Shown: piece after piece, positions 15,225-28,637 of the stretch | How the letters are laid out: each line of letters starts with the position of its first letter | Numbering within the stretch: position 1 is the stretch's first letter | The notes under the pieces: model-generated | The model's input: the letters and a program-made list of their open reading frames with translations, nothing else | What the model was told of the DNA's origin: nothing | Database searches by the model: none | NCBI GenBank assembly: GCA_007136095.1 | Contig: SLHP01000055.1 | Coordinates: 1 to 36,458 of the forward strand | Source: Nitriliruptoraceae bacterium | GTDB taxonomy: Bacteria > Actinomycetota > Nitriliruptoria > Nitriliruptorales > Nitriliruptoraceae | Direction: 5' to 3' | DNA: 36,458 bases | Made by a program: the position numbers and the translations under genes

Positions 15225-15266
15225 GCCCACCGCGGGTTCGCCGCGTCGGCTGCGACGCGCCCGCAC

Positions 15267-15409
15267 GGGTTCGCGTGCATCCGCGTGCAGCACCCGGAGA
15301 CTGCTGCACGCAAACCCCGAACCATGCCCCGCGCCGCCGCGGGTTCGCGTGCATCCGCGTGCAGCACCCGGAGACTGCTGCACGCAAACCCCGAACCATG
15401 CCCCGCGCC
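15267..15409. repeat. Two 69-bp direct repeats, each with a 10-bp perfect hairpin
   Basis: The unit at 15267-15335 is repeated at 15341-15409 (period 74, 5-bp spacer). Each copy holds GCGTGCAGCA, a 9-nt loop and TGCTGCACGC (first copy 15283-15292 and 15302-15311). An outer GGTTCG/CGAACC pair can close a longer stem. The repeat fills the gap between convergent genes ending at 15224 and 15432, so it could act as a bidirectional terminator or 3'-end stabiliser. There is no T tract. Confidence 0.9.
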
Positions 15410-15431: not shown

Positions 15432-15710
15432 TCAGCAGGCGCCACCGGCGACGGCGGGCACGATCGAGACCACGTCACCGTCGCTGAGCGCGGTGTCCAG
15501 GCCGTCCTGGAAGCGGACGTCCTCGTCACGGACGAAGACGTTGACGAACCGCCGGAGCTCGCCGGACTCGTCGAGGACCCGGTCGGCGAAACCGGGATGG
15601 GCAGCATCCAGGTTCGCCACGACCGTGCGCAGATCTGCACCGTCGACGGTCACCTCGGGTCTGCCGTCGGTGAGCTTGCGCAGGGGGGTGGGGATACGGA
15701 CCGTTGGCAT
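15432..15710 (-). CDS. CysO/MoaD-like ubiquitin-fold sulfur carrier with Gly-Gly-Ala-Cys tail
   Basis: A 92-residue beta-grasp protein close in pattern to mycobacterial CysO: VRIPTPLRKLTDG, then RFVNVFVRDEDVRF (residues 54-67), then LSDGDVVSIVPAVAGG. In CysO the C-terminal Gly-Gly is adenylated and converted to a thiocarboxylate that delivers sulfide to a PLP enzyme. Here the Gly89-Gly90 pair is followed by Ala91-Cys92 before the stop, so the glycine is not free. Proteins with such tails (HcyS, QbsE) need a metalloprotease to trim them. The gene starts 53 bp after the threonine-synthase-family gene, under the same SAM riboswitch. MoaD-like molybdopterin function is less likely because no moa genes are nearby. 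Confidence 0.88.
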   Translation of the reverse strand: MPTVRIPTPLRKLTDGRPEVTVDGADLRTVVANLDAAHPGFADRVLDESGELRRFVNVFVRDEDVRFQDGLDTALSDGDVVSIVPAVAGGAC

Positions 15711-15763
15711 GGGGTTGTCCTTCGTCAGGGAGCGTCGGAGGGGACCGACGGGGTGAACGCGAG

Positions 15764-17041
15764 CTACGCAGAACGGGCGGCCAACTGGGCCTGGAAATCG
15801 TCCAGGGACGGCGACACCTCGAAGGTCGGGCCGACCGTGGGCGCCACCGCATCCAGCGTCTTGTAGCCGTTGCCGGAGATGACGGCGACGACGCGTTCGT
15901 CGCGGCCGATCCGACCGTCGGCGGCGAACCGAGCGAGGTTGGCGACCGTGACACCACCGGCGGTCTCGGCGAACAGACCCTCGGTCTCGGCGAGCAGCCG
16001 GATACCGGTGACCACCTCGTCGTCCGGGACGTGTCCGATGACCCCGTCGGTCTCCGCGGCGACCTGCAGCGCGAAGTACCCATCGGCCGGGTTCCCGATC
16101 GCCAGGGAGCGGGCGATCGTGTCGGGGCGTTGCGGCACGACATCGAGCGTGCCCGCCTCGAAAGCGGTCGCGACCGGCGAGCACCCGGTCGCCTGCGCAC
16201 CGCTCATGCGGGGGATGGACCCATCGACCAACCCATGACGCTGCAGATCACCGAAGGCCTTGCGGATCTTCACGAACATCGCTCCCGAGGCGATCGGCGC
16301 GACCACGTGGTCGGGGAACTCCCAGCCGAGCTGCTCGGCGATCTCGTAGCCGATCGTCTTGGACCCCTCGGCGTAGAAGGCCCTCAGGTTGACGTTGACG
16401 AAGCCCCAACCCTGTCGGTCCGCGACCTCGGCACACAGGCGGTTGACGTCGTCGTAGGTCCCGTCGACCGCGACCACGTTGGCCCCGTAGATGGCCGCAC
16501 CGACGATCTTGGCCTGCTCCAGGGTGTTGGGGACGAACACGTACGCCAGCATCCCGACGGCAGCCGCGTGGGCGGCGACCGCACCGGCGAGGTTGCCCGT
16601 GGACGCGCAGGCGATGGTGTCGATGTCCATCGCCCGTGCGGCGGACAGCGCCATCGTGACGACCCGGTCCTTGAACGACCCGGACGGGTTGCGGGTGTCG
16701 TCCTTGAGCCACAGTTCACCGAGACCCAACCGCTGCGCCAGCCGTGGAGCCGGGCGCAGCGGTGACCATCCGGTTCCGAGGTCGACCCGCAGGTCCGGAT
16801 CATCGGAGAGGACCGGTAGCAGGTCCTGGTAGCGCCACAGGGATGCCGGGCCCGCCTCGATCGCAGCCCGGGAGACGCGGCGGTCCGCCAGGTGCTCGTC
16901 GTAGGCGACCTCGAGAGGTCCGAAGCACATCCCACAGACGTGGGAGGCGCTGACGGGTTCGGTCTCCCCACACAGCCGACAGCGCAGGTGGGTCACGTTG
17001 ACCTGCAGGGGCGGTCGTTCGATCGTTGCTGACGCACGCAT
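15764..17041 (-). CDS. thrC: Threonine synthase family PLP enzyme with zinc ribbon
   Basis: A 425-residue fold-type II PLP enzyme annotated by family as threonine synthase (O-phosphohomoserine to threonine). An N-terminal zinc-ribbon-like module has Cys21, Cys24, Cys36 and Cys39. The PLP lysine is Lys124 in NPSGSFKDR. CASTGNLAGAVAAHAA binds the cofactor phosphate region and SGAQATGCSPVATAF follows. It is the first gene of a SAM-riboswitch operon with a CysO-like carrier 53 bp downstream, a context more typical of sulfur assimilation than of threonine synthesis, so a homocysteine or cysteine synthase activity using the carrier thiocarboxylate is an alternative. Start ATG 17041 has AGGAGG 4 nt upstream; an in-frame ATG at 17059 would add six residues. 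Which activity it has cannot be decided from sequence. Confidence 0.88.
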   Translation of the reverse strand: MRASATIERPPLQVNVTHLRCRLCGETEPVSASHVCGMCFGPLEVAYDEHLADRRVSRAAIEAGPASLWRYQDLLPVLSDDPDLRVDLGTGWSPLRPAPRLAQRLGLGELWLKDDTRNPSGSFKDRVVTMALSAARAMDIDTIACASTGNLAGAVAAHAAAVGMLAYVFVPNTLEQAKIVGAAIYGANVVAVDGTYDDVNRLCAEVADRQGWGFVNVNLRAFYAEGSKTIGYEIAEQLGWEFPDHVVAPIASGAMFVKIRKAFGDLQRHGLVDGSIPRMSGAQATGCSPVATAFEAGTLDVVPQRPDTIARSLAIGNPADGYFALQVAAETDGVIGHVPDDEVVTGIRLLAETEGLFAETAGGVTVANLARFAADGRIGRDERVVAVISGNGYKTLDAVAPTVGPTFEVSPSLDDFQAQLAARSA

Positions 17042-17042
17042 G

Positions 17043-17143
17043 CGTCCTCCTGTCCTCATCGTCCCTCGCCGACCGCCCGGTACGGCGGTCGAACGGTTCG
17101 GTGAGAGACCACCGCGGAAGCGGCAGCCTCACCATCGAGGACG
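17043..17143 (-). promoter_or_regulatory. Possible riboswitch expression platform of the thrC-cysO-like operon
   Basis: Between riboswitch and start codon, GAGGACG covering the Shine-Dalgarno (17043-17049) is fully complementary to CGTCCTC at 17137-17143. Two stable hairpins lie between them: 17100-17133 (GGTGAG/CTCACC enclosing CCGC-GGAA-GCGG) and 17070-17091 (8-bp stem). Next to the aptamer, CTCATC at 17151-17156 can pair with the 3' strand of P1 at 17177-17182. These are alternative pairings seen by eye; translational control is the simpler reading because no U tract is present. Confidence 0.4.
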
Positions 17144-17175
17144 TCGGGGCGATGAGTGGACACGCCAAGCGCCAC

Positions 17176-17295
17176 GCTCATCGACCGCGCCGTCTCCGAC
17201 GGGTCCGGGTTTGGCACCTTCCCCCGCTGACTCGCGTCACCGTGGGGGTTGCCGAGGTTTCGTCGGGCCCGAGCCCTCCGCCTCTCTGGATGAGC
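17176..17295 (-). ncRNA. SAM-I (S-box) riboswitch aptamer
   Basis: Read on the minus strand, the sequence has the SAM-I core in order. P1 is closed by GCTCATC (17289-17295) with GATGAGC (17176-17182). Then come CAGAGAGGCGGAGGG, a GGGCCC arm followed by GAAACC, CGGCAACC, a P3 stem of five C (17244-17248) against five G (17221-17225), and AAGGTGCCAAACCC. The A usually found after GAGGG is replaced, which is a small departure. It lies 134 nt upstream of the threonine-synthase-family start. In known S-box leaders SAM binding switches off methionine or sulfur genes. The 211-bp spacer from here to gpgS (17296-17506) holds no gene I can support; it must contain promoters in both directions. Confidence 0.9.
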
Positions 17296-17506
17296 AACCA
17301 GTGACGGCAGCATGCCATCCCCCCGAGCGGAGGGCCAGCCGGCCCGGGCGCTGGTCCAGCAACGGCCCGCGCTCCGAAGCCTCTATAGCCAGCCGGAGTT
17401 CGCGCCCGGGCCAGCGGTCGGGCAGGATGCAGCACGGCCATCGCCCCGCGTCCACGCGCAACCACCTCGCCGGCTCGACCAGCGGTCACCACGTCAAGGG
17501 AATCCC

Positions 17507-18478
17507 GTGCCGCCCGAACATCTCACGGATCGGTTCGCCGCGAGAACACGTCACCACGCGCAGTTCACGGTCGACCTCCTGATCGCGGCCAAGCGTGACC
17601 GTGACCTCACCGTCTCGGTCGTGATCCCCGCCCGCAACGAAGCACCGACCGTCGGCGAGGTCGCCGGGAACCTGCACCGCGCCCTGTCGGTCGACACCGA
17701 ACTGCTCGACGAGGTGCTCGTGGTCGACGCCGATTCAACCGACGGCACGGGCGACATCGCACGCGCGGCCGGCGCACGTGTCGTGCGCCAATCGCATGTC
17801 CTGCCCGGGGCGGGGACCGCCCTCGGCAAGGGAGAGGCGCTCTGGAAGGGTCTGGCCGCCTCGGCGGGGGACCTCGTGGTCTTCGTGGACGCCGACATCC
17901 ACGACATCGGTCCACGCTTCGTGCTCGGGCTGCTCGGACCGCTGCTCCTCGACGACGGCGTGCGGTTCACCAAGGCGACCTACGACCGGCCACTGCGCCT
18001 GGGCGACGAGGTACGTCCCTCCGGTGGAGGGCGGGTCACCGAACTGCTCGCGCGCCCGATCATCGCCGCGTTCTGGCCGGAGCTCGCGTGGCTGGCCCAG
18101 CCGCTCTCCGGGGAGTACGCCGGAGATCGCGACCTGCTCGAGTCGCTCGCGTTCGTCCAGGGCTACGGGGTCGAGTTGGCGATGCTCGTCGACATCGCTG
18201 CCGCGCACGGCCCCGACGTCATCACCCAGGTGGACCTCGGACGGCGCACCCACGACCACCAGAGCCTGGATGCGCTCGGGCGCATGGCCGCCGAGATCCT
18301 CCATGTGGCCACCGACCGCCTGTCGCGTCAGGGTCGACTCGTCCTGACCGATCCTCTGACCACCTCGCTGTTGCAACCCCACCGCGATGGCAGTGGCGAA
18401 CTGCAGTTGACCCGCAGTGAGGTCGTGGTCTCCGAGCGGCCACCGCTGCGTCAGTGGCGGTCACAGCACTCAAGCTGA
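17507..18478 (+). CDS. gpgS: Glucosyl-3-phosphoglycerate synthase
   Basis: A 323-residue GT-A glycosyltransferase (GT81/GT2-like) matching GpgS, which transfers glucose from NDP-glucose to 3-phosphoglycerate, the first step to glucosylglycerate or methylglucose lipopolysaccharide. Seen are TVSVVIPARNEAPTVGEV, VVDADSTDGTGDIA, LGKGEALWKGLAAS, the metal-binding VDAD (Asp128, Asp130), GGGRVTELLARPIIAAFWPEL, QPLSGEYAGDRDLL, GYGVELAMLVD and NADP-free C-terminal RPPLRQW. The start GTG 17507 has AAGGGA 6 nt upstream; an upstream ATG at 17312 in frame gives an Arg/Pro-rich, implausible extension. The phosphatase gpgP is not adjacent. It is divergent from the SAM-riboswitch operon. Confidence 0.94.
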   Translation: MPPEHLTDRFAARTRHHAQFTVDLLIAAKRDRDLTVSVVIPARNEAPTVGEVAGNLHRALSVDTELLDEVLVVDADSTDGTGDIARAAGARVVRQSHVLPGAGTALGKGEALWKGLAASAGDLVVFVDADIHDIGPRFVLGLLGPLLLDDGVRFTKATYDRPLRLGDEVRPSGGGRVTELLARPIIAAFWPELAWLAQPLSGEYAGDRDLLESLAFVQGYGVELAMLVDIAAAHGPDVITQVDLGRRTHDHQSLDALGRMAAEILHVATDRLSRQGRLVLTDPLTTSLLQPHRDGSGELQLTRSEVVVSERPPLRQWRSQHSS

Positions 18479-20240: not shown

Positions 20241-21314
20241 GTGGTCACGGCACCCTTCGCCCGGTCCGATACTCATGAGCAGGTCGTGTTCGCACGCGAT
20301 GACGACGTGGGACTGCGCTGCATCATCGCGATCCATTCGACACGTCTCGGACCGTCACTGGGCGGCACGCGGTTCCGGTCCTACGCCTCGGAGGATGAGG
20401 CACTCACTGATGTCCTGCGCCTGTCCCAGGCGATGACGCTCAAGAGCGCCTGCGCCGGCATCGACCATGGGGGCGGCAAGTCCGTCATCATCGGTGACCC
20501 GGCTGAGCTGCGCAGCGAGGCACTGCTCCGCGCCTTCGGACGGGTGATCGAGAGCCTCGGCGGGCGCTACACGGCCGCGTGCGACATCGGGACGACCCCC
20601 GCCGACATGGCCCTGATCAACCGCGAGACCCGCTGGGTGACAGGCGCGGACGAGGCCGAGGGCGGGTCCGGCGATTCGGGCGTGCTGACCGCCTACGGCC
20701 TCTTCCTCGCCATGCAGGCGACGGCCGAGGCGACCTTCGGTTCCACCTCACTGGCGGGGCGGCACATCGCTGTGCAGGGTCTCGGCAAGGTCGGGGGCCG
20801 CCTGGTCGAGCACATGGTCGAGGACGGCGCGAAGGTCACGGTTGCCGATGTATCGGCGGCTGCGGTCGATCGCGCCAGCGACCTGCCGGGGGTCGAGGTC
20901 GTCCCGGTCGACGACATCCTGGAGGTCGACGCCGACATCGTCTCGCCGAACGCGCTCGGTGGCGTCCTCAACGAACACAGCATCCCGGCCCTGCACGCGG
21001 TCGCGGTCTGCGGTGGCGCCAACAACCAGCTCGCGACACCGGAGGACGCCGAGCGTCTGCACGACCGCGGCATCCTCTACGCCCCCGACTTCGTCGTGAA
21101 CTCCGGCGGCGTGATCAGCGTCGCCGATGAACTGCACCCGCACGGGCGCTCACCGGCACGTGCGCGCCAGCGCGCCAGCGCGATCCCCGCAACGCTCCGC
21201 AACATCATCGAGGTATCCCGTGCGGACGGGATCACGACGGACGCGGCCGCCGAACGGGTCGCGCAGCAGCGCATCGCGGCGGTCGGGGGCCTGCGGAGCT
21301 TCTGGCTGCCCTGA
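20241..21314 (+). CDS. Glu/Leu/Phe/Val dehydrogenase family (valine/leucine dehydrogenase-like)
   Basis: A 357-residue NAD-dependent amino-acid dehydrogenase of the length usual for Val/Leu/Phe dehydrogenases, shorter than glutamate dehydrogenases. Substrate-site motifs are GPSLGGTRFR, then Lys68 (AMTLKSAC) and catalytic Lys80 in GIDHGGGKSVI. DIGTTPADM follows. The Rossmann NAD motif is GLGKVG (residues 180-185), and SPNALGGVLN, CGGANNQL and FVVNSGGVISV are conserved blocks. It oxidatively deaminates a branched-chain amino acid to its 2-oxoacid in catabolism; the exact substrate cannot be told. Start GTG 20241 has GGGAGG 5 nt upstream. The C-terminus has the AAxRVAxxR pattern of the family. 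TAGTCT at 20189 is a possible -10 box. Confidence 0.9.
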   Translation: MVTAPFARSDTHEQVVFARDDDVGLRCIIAIHSTRLGPSLGGTRFRSYASEDEALTDVLRLSQAMTLKSACAGIDHGGGKSVIIGDPAELRSEALLRAFGRVIESLGGRYTAACDIGTTPADMALINRETRWVTGADEAEGGSGDSGVLTAYGLFLAMQATAEATFGSTSLAGRHIAVQGLGKVGGRLVEHMVEDGAKVTVADVSAAAVDRASDLPGVEVVPVDDILEVDADIVSPNALGGVLNEHSIPALHAVAVCGGANNQLATPEDAERLHDRGILYAPDFVVNSGGVISVADELHPHGRSPARARQRASAIPATLRNIIEVSRADGITTDAAAERVAQQRIAAVGGLRSFWLP

Positions 21315-21380: not shown

Positions 21381-23396
21381 ATGGATCCCGAACCCACACC
21401 ACACCGCCCGACACGATCATCGCCTGCGCCAACCGGCTCGGCGACTCCCGCGCGGCCCCGCGAGCCTGCCGGGCGCACCCGGCTGATCCGCGCCTCGGCG
21501 CTCGCCGCACTGGCCGTCGGCGCGCTGTACCTGGGCTGGCGGGTCACCTCGACGTTGAACCCCGATGCGTTGACGTTGTCGGTGACCCTGTGGCTGCTCG
21601 AGCTGCACGCCTGGTTCGGGCTGGCGCTGTTCACCTACGCCCTGTGGGACGTTGATGGCGCCCCGCCGCCCCCGGCAGAGCTACCCGAGCTGACGGTCGC
21701 GGTCCTGATCCCGACCTACAACGAGCCCGTCGAGGTCCTGTTGCCGACGATCGTCGCCGCGGTGGCGCTCGAACCCGACCACGACACGTGGGTGCTGGAT
21801 GACGGCAACCGCCCGGCCGTCGCCGAGCTCGCCGTCCGTCTGGGGGCGCGCTACCTCACGCGCCCCGAACACACCGACGCCAAGGCCGGCAACCTCAACC
21901 ATGCTCTGACGGTGATCGACACCGACCTCATCGCGGTGCTGGACGCAGATCACGTCGCGACACCGGGCTTCCTGCGACGGACGCTGCCCTACTTCCACGA
22001 CGACGACATCGCCCTCGTCCAGACCCCGCAGGACTTCTACAACGACTCGTCGTTCGAACACGTCCATGTTCGACGCGGGCAGGAAGAGCACGTGGTCTTC
22101 AGCGAGCAGGCGGTCTTCTACCGGGAGATCCAGCCCGGGAAGAACCGGTGGGGTGGCGCGTTCTGGTGCGGGACCGGGGCCGTTCTCCGGGTGGCTGCGC
22201 TGGGATCGGTCGGCGGGGTCGCCACCACCTCGATCACCGAGGACATCCAGACCACGATCCGGATGCACCGGAAGGGGTGGCGGACCGTCTACCACGACGA
22301 GGTGCTGGCTCGCGGGCTGGCCGCGGACACCGCGGAGCAGTACGCGCTGCAGCGCCGGCGGTGGTGCACCGGGGCGATGCAGGTCATGCGCCAGGAGCGA
22401 CCCCTGACCGATCGACGCCTGACCCCTCGGCAGCGGCTGACCTACGCCTCGACACTGCTGGGTTGGTTCGACGCGGTCCGGCTGCTGCTGCTCCTGGTGT
22501 TCCCCCTGCTGGTGCTGCTGAGCGGCGCATCGCCGATCGCCGCGCCCCTGGCGGTCTTCGCGGCGGCCTTCGGGGCGTCGATCCTGCTGCAACAGCACGC
22601 GTTGTGGCGTCTGGCCCGGGGAAGGATCCGACCGGTCCCGACCGCCGTGTTCGACCTGTCACGCCTGGAAGCCACCCTGCAGGCGATCCTGGTCGGTCTC
22701 ACGGGTCGGGACATCCCGTTCCAGGTCACCCCCAAGGGAGCGAGCGGGCAGACGGGCAGGAAACGGATCCCGGTTCCACGACTGCTGCTCGCCCTGGCCG
22801 CCGGCCACATGGCTGCCATCGCGTGGTACCTGCTGACGCTGGCAGGCCGGACCCCCCTGACCTACGAGATCGCCGGGGTCGCCCACGGCGCAGCGCTCTG
22901 GGCGGTGATCAACGGGTTGCTGATCGCCACGGCGATCACCCGGATCCGCTCCTCACGCTTCGCCGACGAACGTCGCGGCAGCTACCGCCACCCCGTGCAC
23001 GCCACGGGCCTGCTCGACGGCCGACCGGCGACGATCACGGATCTGTCCCTGACCGGTGCGCAGCTGCGGATGGAACCTGCCGCCACACCGGAGACGGGGA
23101 CGATCGGACGGCTCGACCTGGACATGTCCGGCGAGCGCGCATCGTTCGTCGCGGAGGTCCGCTCGGTCCGTCCGGCACCGGGTGAGGATGGCTCATCGCT
23201 CGTCGGCCTGTCGTTCGACGACGGGCAGCTGACCACCCAGGCACAACTCGCGCTCGGACTGTTCAACGCTGCGGCGCCGACCGGCACCCCGGAGGAGCCA
23301 CGTCCGGTGGCCGTCACCGCCACCGGCGACGTGGACGAAGGCCCGACCGGTCCGGGCCCGTCACACGACGACCGCGGGAGCATCGCTGTGCACTGA
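21381..23396 (+). CDS. Cellulose-synthase-like GT2 with C-terminal PilZ domain
   Basis: A 671-residue membrane glycosyltransferase with BcsA architecture. Two N-terminal transmembrane helices (about 35-55 and 66-90) precede the GT-A domain: VLIPTYNEP, DDGN (Asp140-141), DAD (188-190), the TED acceptor motif at 286-288 and QRRRW at 324-328. Four or more transmembrane helices follow (about 358-520). A PilZ domain follows: R532-xxx-R536 and D554-x-S556-xx-G559, the c-di-GMP binding residues. It should polymerise and export a beta-glucan or similar under c-di-GMP control. No bcsB, bcsZ or bcsC gene is nearby, so the polymer and exit route are unknown. The N-terminal 30 residues are Pro-rich. It follows the dehydrogenase by 66 bp. 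Confidence 0.9.
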   Translation: MDPEPTPHRPTRSSPAPTGSATPARPREPAGRTRLIRASALAALAVGALYLGWRVTSTLNPDALTLSVTLWLLELHAWFGLALFTYALWDVDGAPPPPAELPELTVAVLIPTYNEPVEVLLPTIVAAVALEPDHDTWVLDDGNRPAVAELAVRLGARYLTRPEHTDAKAGNLNHALTVIDTDLIAVLDADHVATPGFLRRTLPYFHDDDIALVQTPQDFYNDSSFEHVHVRRGQEEHVVFSEQAVFYREIQPGKNRWGGAFWCGTGAVLRVAALGSVGGVATTSITEDIQTTIRMHRKGWRTVYHDEVLARGLAADTAEQYALQRRRWCTGAMQVMRQERPLTDRRLTPRQRLTYASTLLGWFDAVRLLLLLVFPLLVLLSGASPIAAPLAVFAAAFGASILLQQHALWRLARGRIRPVPTAVFDLSRLEATLQAILVGLTGRDIPFQVTPKGASGQTGRKRIPVPRLLLALAAGHMAAIAWYLLTLAGRTPLTYEIAGVAHGAALWAVINGLLIATAITRIRSSRFADERRGSYRHPVHATGLLDGRPATITDLSLTGAQLRMEPAATPETGTIGRLDLDMSGERASFVAEVRSVRPAPGEDGSSLVGLSFDDGQLTTQAQLALGLFNAAAPTGTPEEPRPVAVTATGDVDEGPTGPGPSHDDRGSIAVH

Positions 23397-24480: not shown

Positions 24481-24898
24481 CGGCGCGCTCCTTCGGGGGG
24501 CGCCAGCGACGTCGCCACTCACGCTCGGCGTCCGCGAAGGTGTCCAGCGGATCGATCACGTCCTGCAGGATCGTGAGCAACTCCTCGAGTTCATCGGTCG
24601 AGGCGGCGACGTGGTCGACGTCATCCAGCGCCTTCTCGGCCGCGTCGAGGGCATCGACGCACTCCTGCCAGTCCTGCTCCAACTCGTCGAGGCGCCAGCC
24701 GGGCATCCAGGCGCGGGCATCGGCGATCGAGCGACGCACGGCGTCGGTCCCGGCACCGATCGGAGCGGGCTCGACCCGTCCGGTTGGCAACGTTCCGAGC
24801 AGGACACGTCGCCCGGCTTCGATCACCTCGGCGCAATCGACGAACGACCACCAGGCAGGGTGGAGGTCGGGGGGCAGGTCTGGCTTCCGGCGGAACAT
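24470..24898 (-). CDS. Hypothetical protein overlapping purM
   Basis: A 142-residue soluble, acidic, mainly helical protein that I do not recognise. It has a Trp-rich start (HPAWWSFVD), a central amphipathic helix (DELEQDWQECVDALDAAEKAL) and a second coiled-coil-like helix (STDELEELLTILQDVIDPL), then a basic end (REWRRRWRPPKERADVG). No signal peptide, no transmembrane segment, no Cys motif. The 3' end overlaps the purM start by 11 bp, so it is the first gene of a two-gene operon, and its expression would track purM. Codon use matches neighbours, so the frame is likely real. Confidence 0.7.
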   Translation of the reverse strand: MFRRKPDLPPDLHPAWWSFVDCAEVIEAGRRVLLGTLPTGRVEPAPIGAGTDAVRRSIADARAWMPGWRLDELEQDWQECVDALDAAEKALDDVDHVAASTDELEELLTILQDVIDPLDTFADAEREWRRRWRPPKERADVG

Positions 24899-24965
24899 GG
24901 CGCGGAGTATCGCGTGCCGGTGCCCGCGGCGCGAACCGGCGGTGATCGTCCGGCCGAGGACGACC

Positions 24966-24971
24966 TACCCT
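24966..24971 (+). promoter_or_regulatory. -10 box of a probable leaderless metH promoter
   Basis: TACCCT at 24966-24971 is followed by 6 nt and then the ATG at 24978, and GTGATC at 24942 is spaced 18 nt upstream as a weak -35. No Shine-Dalgarno precedes the ATG. This is the standard geometry for a leaderless transcript. Confidence 0.6.
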
Positions 24972-24977
24972 CTGTGT

Positions 24978-27900
24978 ATGACTTCGATGCTGCCCCCGAT
25001 CGATGCCCATCCCCTGCTCGCGGCCCTGCGCGACCGCGTCATCGTGTTCGACGGTGGGATGGGTACCTCCCTGCAGAACGCCGGACTGACGACGGCCGAC
25101 TTCGGCAGCGACGACCTCGACGGCTGCAACGAGGTGGTGGTCCAGACCCGTCCCGATGTGATCGACCGGATCCACCGCAGCTTCCTCGAGGTGGGTGTGC
25201 ACGCGGTCCAGACCGACACGTTCGGTGGCGCCCCCTGGGTCCTGGACGAGTACGGGTTGGGCTCTCAGGCCGAGGACCTCAACCGTCGCGCCTCCGAGAT
25301 CGCGCGCGCGGCCGCCGATGCCTTCGCGACCCCCGGCGATCCGCGGTGGGTCATCGGATCGATCGGACCGGGCACCAGGTCGCCGACGCTGTCGCTCGGC
25401 AAGGACCCGTCAACCGCCAAGGACTTCATCGACGTCCCGTTCATGGAGGAGGGCTACCGGCGCCAGATCCGCGGCCTGCTGGACGGGGGCAGCGACGTCA
25501 TCCTCGTCGAGACGTGCTTTGACCTGCTGCAGGTCAAGGCCGCGGTCGCCGCCGCCAACGACGTGTTCGTCGAACGCGGTGAACGCGTGCCGCTGCTGGT
25601 GCAGTTCACGGTCGAGAAGGACATCAACACGATGCTGCTGGGGACGGAGCCCCTGGCGGCGATCGCGGCACTGGATCCGCTGTCGATCGACGTCCTCGGG
25701 ATGAACTGCGCGACCGGCCCACAGGACATGCGCGAGCACGTGCGTACGCTCTCGCGCCAGTCGCGCCTGCCGATCAGCGTCATCCCCAACGCCGGTATCC
25801 CCTACCTCGAGGATGACGCGACGATCTACCCCCTGGAGCCGGACGGCCTGGCCGAGGCCCAGCGCGAGTTCGTCGCCGAGATGGGGGTCGCGATCGTCGG
25901 GGGCTGCTGCGGGACCACACCGGAGCACCTCGCCGCCGTCGTCGACGCGGTCGACGGCCTGGTGCCACGGCCGCGGGCCGTCGATCGGCCCGGGTCGGTC
26001 CGGGTCGGCGCGGCCGGCACCCTGACCGATCCCGACCGCCTCGATGCGGATGACGACCGGGAGGCCATCACCGTCGAGTGGCGACCGAGCCTGGCCTCGC
26101 TGTACTCGGCCGTGCCGATCCAGCAGGACACCGCGTTCCTGGCGATCGGCGAACGCGCCAACGCCAACGGTTCGCGCGCCTTCAAGCAACTGCTGCTGGA
26201 CGAGGACTGGGACGGTGCGCTGCAACTCGCCCGGTCCCAGACCCGCGAGGGCGCGCACGTCCTGGACATCTGTGTCGACTACGTCGGGCGCGAGGGTGTG
26301 CCGGACGTGATCCAGATCGTCGACCGGTTCGCGACCCAGTCGACCCTGCCGCTGGTCATCGACTCCACGCAGATCGACGTCATCGAGACCGCGCTCTTGC
26401 GTCTCGGTGGCCGGGCGGTCATCAACTCGGTCAACCTCGAGGACGGCCGGGTCAAGGCCGACGTGCTACTCCCGCTGGCCAAGCGCTATGGCGCCGCGGT
26501 GGTCGTGCTGGCCATCGACGAAGAGGGTCAGGCGCGGACCGCCGACTGGAAGGTCGAGGTCTGCGAGCGTGTCGCCCGGATCGCCATCGACGAGTACGGC
26601 CTGGAGGCCCACGACCTCATCTTCGACTGCCTGACCTTCCCGCTGGGATCCGGACAGGAGGACCTGCGGGGTGACGCGGCACAGACACTGGAGGCGATCG
26701 AGCGGGTCAAGGATGCCATCCCCGGTTGCGCCACCACGCTCGGCGTGTCGAACGTGTCCTTCGGCCTGTCTGCCGCAGCGCGTCAGGTCCTGAACTCAGT
26801 GTTCCTCAAGGAGGCGATGGACCGCGGCCTGGACTCCGCGATCGTGCACCCGGGCAAGATCCTGCCGCTGCACCGCATCCCCGACGAGCACGTGCAGGTC
26901 GCCACCGACCTGATCCACGACCGCCGCGGTCCGACCGGGATGAACGGCGAGGCGCCGGACGACTACGACCCCCTGCACAAGCTGATGGCCCTGTTCGAGG
27001 GTGCGACCGAGAGCAAGCTGTCCACCGAGGACCGCGCCGCGCTGCCGGTCGAGGAACGGCTGGAGCAGCGCATCGTCGACGGGGACAAGGACGGCATCGA
27101 CACCGACCTCGACGAGGCCCTGGTGTCGCACCCACCGCTTACGATCATCAACCAGTTCCTGCTCAAGGGCATGGCCACCGTCGGAGAGCTGTTCGCGTCG
27201 GGGCAGATGCAACTGCCCTTCGTGCTGCAGTCCGCCGAGGCGATGAAGACCGCGGTCGCCTACCTCGAACCCCACATCGAGGAGTCGGGCGAGGGCTCGT
27301 CGTCGTCCAAGGGCACGTTCGTGGTCGCCACGGTCAAGGGCGACGTGCACGACATCGGCAAGAACCTGGTCGACATCATCCTGCGCAACAACGGCTTCGA
27401 TGTCATCAACCTCGGCATCAAGCAGCCGATCGACACGATCCTGGCGGCCGCCGAGGAACACGGGGCGGACGCCATCGGGATGTCCGGCCTGCTGGTGAAG
27501 TCGACCGTGATCATGAAGGAGAACCTGCAGGAGATGAACGCCCGCGGGTTGGGGCACCTCCCGGTGCTACTGGGCGGAGCGGCGCTGACCCGCGGCTACG
27601 TCGAGGACGATCTCCGGTCGATCTACGAGGGCGATGTCTTCTACTGCAAGGACGCGTTCGAGGGGCTGCGGGTGCTCGAGGCCGTGCTGAAGGCACGCGT
27701 CGAGGGCCAGTCGGTCCCCGACGACCTGGCGGCGCACAAGCCGCGACGTCAGCCCAAGGTGACCCGCGCGATCGAGGAACCGCCGGTCCGCGACGCCGCC
27801 GGACGTCCCCGATCCGCGGTTGCCGCCGACGTCGACGTGCCGACCCCGCCGTTCTGGGGCCAGCGTGTGGTCCGCGGCATCCCGTTGGACGAGGTCGCGC

Positions 27901-28637
27901 CCCTGCTCAACGAGGTGGCGCTGTTCCGCAACCAGTGGGGGTTCACCCCCGGCGACCTCGATCCGGACGGCTACGCGCAACTGCTGGAGTCCAAGGCGCG
28001 TCCCGTGCTGCGCGACTGGCTGTCGCGCGCCAGGGCCGAGAAGGTCGTCACTCCCGAGGTCGTCTACGGCTTCTACCCCGCCAGCGGCGACGGCGACGAC
28101 CTGGTGGTCTGGGACCCGGACGCGCCACTCGAACGGGAACTGGTCCGCTTCAACTTCCCTCGGCAGGACCGTGGCCGGTTCCTGTGCATCGCCGATTTCT
28201 TCCGCCCGGCTGACAGCGGCGAGGTGGATGTGCTGGGCGTCCAGGTCGTGACGATGGGACGACGGATCAGCGAGGTCGCCCAGGGGCTGTTCGACGAGGA
28301 CCGCTACCAGGACTACCTGTTCGCCCACGGGTTCGGTGTCGAGATGGCCGAGGCCCTGGCCGAGTTGTGGCACCGCCGGATCCGCCAGGAACTGGAGGTC
28401 GTGGCGGACGACGGACCGACCGTCAAGGACTGGTTCCGTCAGGGCTACCGCGGGTCGCGCTACTCGTTCGGCTACGCCGCCTGCCCGGACCTCGAGGACC
28501 AGGAGAAGCTGTTCAAGCTGATCGACCCGTCACAGATCGGCGTCGAACTCACCGATGAGTTCATGCTCCACCCTGAGCAGTCCACCTCCGCGATCGTCGT
28601 GCACCACCCGGAGGCGAAGTACTTCAATGCGAGATGA
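24978..28637 (+). CDS. metH: Cobalamin-dependent methionine synthase
   Basis: A 1219-residue four-module MetH that transfers methyl from methyl-THF to homocysteine through cobalamin. Module 1 (about 1-330) is the homocysteine-binding barrel with zinc ligands including Cys310-Cys311 in GGCCGTTPEH. Module 2 (about 370-640) is the pterin-binding domain (AIGERANANGSRAFKQLLLDEDWDGAL, VIDSTQIDVIETAL). Module 3 is the B12 cap and Rossmann domain, with DVHDIG supplying the axial His791, and then GMSGLLVKST and LGGAALTR. Module 4 (about 950-1219) is the SAM-binding reactivation domain (GYRGSRYSFGYAACPDLEDQ). No cobalamin riboswitch is visible in the 79-bp gap upstream. Translation is probably leaderless. 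The stop overlaps possible starts of the next gene in a tandem-repeat junction. Confidence 0.97.
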   Translation: MTSMLPPIDAHPLLAALRDRVIVFDGGMGTSLQNAGLTTADFGSDDLDGCNEVVVQTRPDVIDRIHRSFLEVGVHAVQTDTFGGAPWVLDEYGLGSQAEDLNRRASEIARAAADAFATPGDPRWVIGSIGPGTRSPTLSLGKDPSTAKDFIDVPFMEEGYRRQIRGLLDGGSDVILVETCFDLLQVKAAVAAANDVFVERGERVPLLVQFTVEKDINTMLLGTEPLAAIAALDPLSIDVLGMNCATGPQDMREHVRTLSRQSRLPISVIPNAGIPYLEDDATIYPLEPDGLAEAQREFVAEMGVAIVGGCCGTTPEHLAAVVDAVDGLVPRPRAVDRPGSVRVGAAGTLTDPDRLDADDDREAITVEWRPSLASLYSAVPIQQDTAFLAIGERANANGSRAFKQLLLDEDWDGALQLARSQTREGAHVLDICVDYVGREGVPDVIQIVDRFATQSTLPLVIDSTQIDVIETALLRLGGRAVINSVNLEDGRVKADVLLPLAKRYGAAVVVLAIDEEGQARTADWKVEVCERVARIAIDEYGLEAHDLIFDCLTFPLGSGQEDLRGDAAQTLEAIERVKDAIPGCATTLGVSNVSFGLSAAARQVLNSVFLKEAMDRGLDSAIVHPGKILPLHRIPDEHVQVATDLIHDRRGPTGMNGEAPDDYDPLHKLMALFEGATESKLSTEDRAALPVEERLEQRIVDGDKDGIDTDLDEALVSHPPLTIINQFLLKGMATVGELFASGQMQLPFVLQSAEAMKTAVAYLEPHIEESGEGSSSSKGTFVVATVKGDVHDIGKNLVDIILRNNGFDVINLGIKQPIDTILAAAEEHGADAIGMSGLLVKSTVIMKENLQEMNARGLGHLPVLLGGAALTRGYVEDDLRSIYEGDVFYCKDAFEGLRVLEAVLKARVEGQSVPDDLAAHKPRRQPKVTRAIEEPPVRDAAGRPRSAVAADVDVPTPPFWGQRVVRGIPLDEVAPLLNEVALFRNQWGFTPGDLDPDGYAQLLESKARPVLRDWLSRARAEKVVTPEVVYGFYPASGDGDDLVVWDPDAPLERELVRFNFPRQDRGRFLCIADFFRPADSGEVDVLGVQVVTMGRRISEVAQGLFDEDRYQDYLFAHGFGVEMAEALAELWHRRIRQELEVVADDGPTVKDWFRQGYRGSRYSFGYAACPDLEDQEKLFKLIDPSQIGVELTDEFMLHPEQSTSAIVVHHPEAKYFNAR

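Follow-up and report, generated by a model that had tools for sequence, protein, structure and literature searches.

A probable MetM/MetO homocysteine synthase operon preceded by a SAM-I riboswitch in a Nitriliruptoraceae bacterium

In a 36,458-nucleotide stretch of contig SLHP01000055.1 from a Nitriliruptoraceae bacterium (positions 1-36,458, hereafter called the window), a minus-strand locus very probably forms an operon for the homocysteine synthase pair MetM/MetO, governed by a SAM-I (S-box) riboswitch; this reading includes the sulfur relay and the shut-off by SAM proposed below. We observed the gene anatomy, the riboswitch, a distinct enzyme clade and all the partner genes of the relay, and the window enzyme probably forms homocysteine, its reaction being taken from the published Streptomyces system. 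The original prediction had raised the possibility of a general unrecognised system; MetM/MetO was in fact published in 2024, riboswitch included (Hasebe et al.), and the window locus is well supported as a Nitriliruptoria member of a system already described in Streptomyces.

The leader of the locus matched the SAM-I model RF00162 over its full length (1-108) with a score of 61.4 bits against a gathering cut-off of 44.4 (E 4.9e-12). The longest open reading frame of the PLP enzyme that follows opens at 17059, but the ATG at 17041 is the likelier start because it is preceded by a GGAGG (Table 1). The enzyme matched PALP in Pfam (234.9 bits) and thrC in NCBIfam (TIGR00260, 254.5 bits), contains a CxxC...CxxC zinc ribbon read directly from the sequence and carries the PLP-lysine motif NPSGSFKDR. 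Downstream of it, after a gap of 53 bp, lies a carrier of the beta-grasp ThiS family with its C-terminal Gly-Gly (Pfam ThiS, 54.3 bits), whose top relative in the PDB is Mycobacterium tuberculosis CysO (3dwg, E 4.7e-23). The S-box on the minus strand, the zinc-ribbon fold-type II PLP enzyme, the CysO-like carrier 53 bp on and a MetH in the same window had all been predicted, and reading frames, profiles and the structure match bore them out at the right coordinates. The metH gene lies about 7.5 kb from metM/metO on the opposite strand, outside the operon, and its product is a possible consumer of homocysteine.

Table 1 Features of the metM/metO locus and of metH in the window.
Feature	Position	Strand	Evidence
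SAM-I (S-box) riboswitch aptamer, RF00162	17296-17175	-	covariance model, 61.4 bits
Leader from aptamer to metM start; candidate translational expression platform	17042..17174	-	read from sequence
Shine-Dalgarno GGAGG of metM	17050-17046	-	read from sequence
metM-like gene for a 425-aa fold-type II PLP enzyme with a zinc ribbon (threonine synthase family)	15764..17041	-	profiles and clade
metO-like gene for a 92-aa sulfur carrier of the ThiS/MoaD family, ending in AVAGG-AC	15432..15710	-	profiles and structure match
metH, cobalamin-dependent methionine synthase	24540..28637	+	TIGR02082, 1293 bits

Around the locus, a 74-bp unit is present in perfect tandem duplication just downstream of metO (15266-15409), and a glucosyl-3-phosphoglycerate synthase gene (17312-18478) is divergent from the S-box leader, so that one short stretch must hold both promoters. 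Farther on, the best profile match of the reading frame at 20241-21314 is the ScyB tryptophan dehydrogenase (323 bits, below its cut-off of 600), which suggests an amino-acid dehydrogenase, and the next gene (21381-23396) encodes a cellulose-synthase-like glycosyltransferase.

The substrates of MetM are reportedly O-phosphohomoserine and the thiocarboxylate form of MetO, the carrier encoded downstream. As described in PMC12172450, which cites Hasebe et al. 2024 (AEM 90:e01247-24), MetM is a Streptomyces homocysteine synthase working with a sulfur carrier, and in S. albulus a SAM riboswitch lies upstream. The window shares with S. albulus a ThrC-like enzyme, a sulfur carrier gene directly downstream, a SAM riboswitch upstream and O-phosphohomoserine as the proposed substrate; unlike S. 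albulus, its host belongs to a different class (Nitriliruptoria) and encodes MetX-MetY in the same genome, and its carrier extends past GG by AC. Family likeness alone is no proof of homocysteine synthase activity: a cyanobacterial protein with 51.6% identity to S. albulus MetM forms threonine and has side activities (PMC12172450).

Relatives of the locus were surveyed at two depths. The closest relatives of the window enzyme come from Nitriliruptoraceae genomes and Salsipaludibacter (70-77% identity), followed by Acidimicrobiia-type proteins (57-60%); among these close loci an S-box preceded metM in all 19 with upstream DNA, and a carrier lay directly downstream in 18 of 20 actinobacterial loci. 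In a phylum-wide sample, matches at E <= 1e-100 were found in 93 of 247 actinobacterial genomes, a share that points to wide occurrence of MetM-type enzymes in Actinomycetota; 49 of these loci were read, with an S-box in 35 of the 48 that have upstream DNA and an adjacent carrier in 35/49, Salsipaludibacter probably being counted in both locus sets, since the L028 and L100 proteins are identical. Nonomuraea gerenzanensis has S-box, enzyme (52% identity), carrier and a cold-shock gene (csp) in a row, and was the only match when a named Streptomyces MetM was sought among plasmid records; the same order of S-box, carrier and csp recurred in 7/7 loci of family f22, from genomes of 7-10 Mb. Thus, the adjacency of a thrC-like gene and a carrier, predicted to recur in actinobacteria, does so in dozens of genomes, which places the arrangement of S-box, enzyme and carrier far beyond chance.

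In a quick maximum-likelihood tree, with ThrC and ThrC2 from the same genome as the window among the outgroups, 71 actinobacterial proteins including the window enzyme formed one clade (support 100, branch 1.43). Tabulation of co-occurrence, suggested at the outset, gave an S-box for 56 of the 71 members and an adjacent carrier for 55. At eighteen conserved columns the clade has residues found in none of the eight threonine-synthase-like outgroups, among them positions around the PLP site (GNL in place of GNT/GNA; ETAGG in place of EPASA/EMASA). Clade membership and synteny with Nonomuraea and f22 are what make the window enzyme a probable MetM orthologue. Among the other members, six loci (L130, L132, L137, L139, L142 and L145) have S-box and metM without an adjacent carrier gene, and the MetM-like proteins of a family f11 subclade (L110, L120, L123, L124 and L125) lack both an S-box and a carrier gene next door; their function may differ, or a different carrier may serve them.

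We then considered what else the genome encodes (3.06 Mb in 269 contigs, 92% complete). A canonical thrC adjoins hom on contig C187 (TIGR00260, 315.9 bits) and a second thrC-like gene, thrC2, lies on contig C179 (PRK08197, 661.7 bits); the window enzyme is thus not the sole threonine synthase of the genome, and threonine could be made from the separate hom-thrC without it, a result that favours the homocysteine function. The MoeZ-like activator and the JAB protease expected for a carrier of this kind were both found, the first as the only ThiF-family protein of the genome (contig C168, an E1 whose rhodanese-like C-terminus reads CLSGVRS in the sequence) and the second as a single gene, on contig C52, which holds a separate CysO with it. 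As thrB is present too, no partner of the proposed sulfur relay is missing from the genome.

The window carrier ends two residues (AC) beyond GG, which means that trimming would be needed before thiocarboxylation. In the Wolinella succinogenes HcyS/MetY route a JAB protease removes the precursor tail, and the trimming of carrier tails by JAB proteases in related systems is established for HcyD and QbsD. From this anatomy we infer that the MetO tail is trimmed, presumably by the genome's JAB protease, and that the MoeZ-like protein is the activating enzyme. In the proposed relay, the JAB1/MPN protease would trim MetO to its Gly-Gly end and the E1-rhodanese would adenylate and sulfurate it to the C-terminal thiocarboxylate, while ThrB would supply O-phosphohomoserine; MetM would eliminate phosphate from this substrate and add sulfur from the MetO thiocarboxylate, yielding homocysteine that MetH would methylate. 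A carrier thiocarboxylate is likewise the sulfur donor for homocysteine in the Wolinella methionine route (Krishnamoorthy and Begley 2011, as cited in PMC5764234), whose PLP enzyme is MetY, of fold type I and acting on an acylated homoserine, whereas that of the window is a fold type II relative of ThrC. Among metM-linked carriers of relatives, 32/54 end exactly at Gly-Gly and 22/54 have 1-6 residues more.

Does the window enzyme make something else? It shares with ThrC (PDB 6cgq, 2d1f, 1e5x) the fold, the NPSGSFKDR motif and the family-level profile matches, its top named families are threonine synthases, the cyanobacterial MetM-like ThrC forms threonine, and some clade members, those of f11, lack S-box and carrier; it could thus be an ordinary threonine synthase set by SAM, balancing the threonine and methionine branches at O-phosphohomoserine, with the carrier serving another pathway. 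We consider this improbable, since the canonical thrC after hom covers threonine, repression of a threonine enzyme by SAM would have the wrong sign for sparing methionine, the clade-specific columns, including those of the PLP-site region, set the enzyme apart from the eight outgroups, and an adjacent carrier, like the S-box, goes with it in most of the clade and not with ThrC. Less probable still is a dual-function enzyme that makes threonine without charged carrier and homocysteine with it: both reactions would start from the same substrate and share an aminocrotonate-type intermediate, as in established threonine synthase chemistry, and side activities are described for the cyanobacterial homologue (PMC12172450), but the genome has a dedicated thrC, and the S-box would then switch threonine synthesis too.

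The genome resembles the CysO/CysM/Mec system of M. tuberculosis in its CysO-like carrier, MoeZ activator, JAB protease and fold type II PLP partner; that system makes cysteine from O-phosphoserine via CysM, whereas the window genome has its own CysO and JAB protease elsewhere. That the window carrier is a second CysO, and its partner a CysM-like cysteine synthase, can practically be dismissed, because the carrier, for all its match to M. tuberculosis CysO and its 54% identity to the genome's own CysO, is nearer to other metM-linked carriers (72-82% identity within its class, 57-60% outside it) than to CysO proteins (47-54%), the separate CysO sits with the JAB protease on C52, and the enzyme belongs to the threonine synthase family and not to CysK/CysM. 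Genome content and clade thus led us to reject both this reading and that of a sole threonine synthase. The genome's own CysO (L017, 3293-3661, at the end of C52) runs past GG into in-frame AGGAERSEHARRDRV repeats up to the contig end, and the CysO of a relative (L072) has the same kind of repeated tail; either the protein genuinely ends in a repetitive tail that has several GG sites, or a tandem repeat lies across the stop region.

Returning to the MetM/MetO operon, we examined its regulation. The S-box before metM is the only one over the cut-off in the 92% complete genome, and the 15 genomes tested had one such S-box each, always before metM. A second match of 27 bits on contig C54, below the cut-off and with neighbours unrelated to methionine, was taken as chance. 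No intrinsic terminator or terminator-like site was seen in the metM leader, and from its anatomy metM/metO are likely controlled at translation; high SAM would shut the operon off, probably at that step. The aptamer and the start codon are separated by a spacer of about 130 nt in the window (93-135 nt between aptamer P1 and the Shine-Dalgarno sequence in Nitriliruptoria), in contrast to Nonomuraea and Acidimicrobiia, where P1 and the Shine-Dalgarno sequence overlap directly: there, GATGAGGAGG or a similar sequence forms the end of P1, 6-13 nt ahead of the start codon, and, as P1 carries the ribosome-binding site, a P1 stabilised by SAM could cover it directly.

In the window leader, a CGATGAG beside the Shine-Dalgarno sequence (17061-17055), kept in 6/7 Nitriliruptoria leaders, repeats the 3' strand of aptamer P1 (17183-17177), and each copy is complementary to a CTCATCG (17156-17150), an arrangement that points to a three-way competition. 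When SAM is absent, the 3' strand of P1 would pair with CTCATCG; with SAM, P1 would form and free CTCATCG to pair beside the Shine-Dalgarno sequence. Constrained thermodynamic folding of the window leader gave Shine-Dalgarno accessibilities of 0.63 versus 0.57 with P1 forced or blocked, no consistent on/off difference, and in an RNAalifold consensus of seven leaders the covariation term of the hairpins was close to zero, a weak signal with seven sequences. The leader is thus a candidate platform; folding and covariation do not fix the exact switching path, and we claim no definite expression platform.

The genome also encodes the conventional pathway that had been weighed against the predicted one: metY and metX are adjacent on contig C69, of mycobacterial type, and no S-box over the cut-off was found at this pair. 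Homocysteine can therefore probably be made in two ways, of which only MetM/MetO is, by covariance-model search, under a recognisable SAM switch. The prediction that homocysteine arises from O-phosphohomoserine and a carrier thiocarboxylate fits MetM/MetO in clade, gene order and riboswitch, but this is not the sole possible route, nor is it obligatory here. MetX was present in 6/7 Nitriliruptoria, Salsipaludibacter having MetA instead. Two Nitriliruptoraceae relatives, L030 and L031, have lost metO: S-box and metM are kept with no metO adjoining, and ThiS-family searches of their genomes gave two matches each, one of them CysO-like.

In eight draft Acidimicrobiia-type genomes with MetM, MetX and MetA were both sought and neither was found (8/8), and eight joint absences are hard to explain by draft incompleteness. 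Acidimicrobium ferrooxidans is listed without any known homocysteine route by Price et al. 2018 (PMC5764234), and MetM/MetO, as judged from these gene contents, may be the natural candidate for this gap. A combined picture would have Nitriliruptoraceae keeping a SAM-repressed MetM/MetO beside a MetX-MetY without detectable S-box, a GG-AC precursor letting CysO and MetO share a single JAB protease and a single MoeZ, CysO replacing MetO as the sulfur donor of MetM in L030 and L031, and an Acidimicrobiia riboswitch that hides the ribosome-binding site in P1, with MetM/MetO supplying the homocysteine route that this class otherwise lacks; as a whole we hold it to be possible and rather doubtful.

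Interest remains in the pairing of this route with MetX-MetY, in the tail of the carrier, in the members that have lost metO and in the homocysteine gap of the Acidimicrobiia. Moreover, because databases label MetM-type enzymes as threonine synthase, methionine prototrophy is mispredicted, and an S-box serves well in annotation to separate MetM from ThrC. One of the loci surveyed (L107, genome G095), with S-box, metM and metO, lies in a single-contig genome of about 2.2 Mb.
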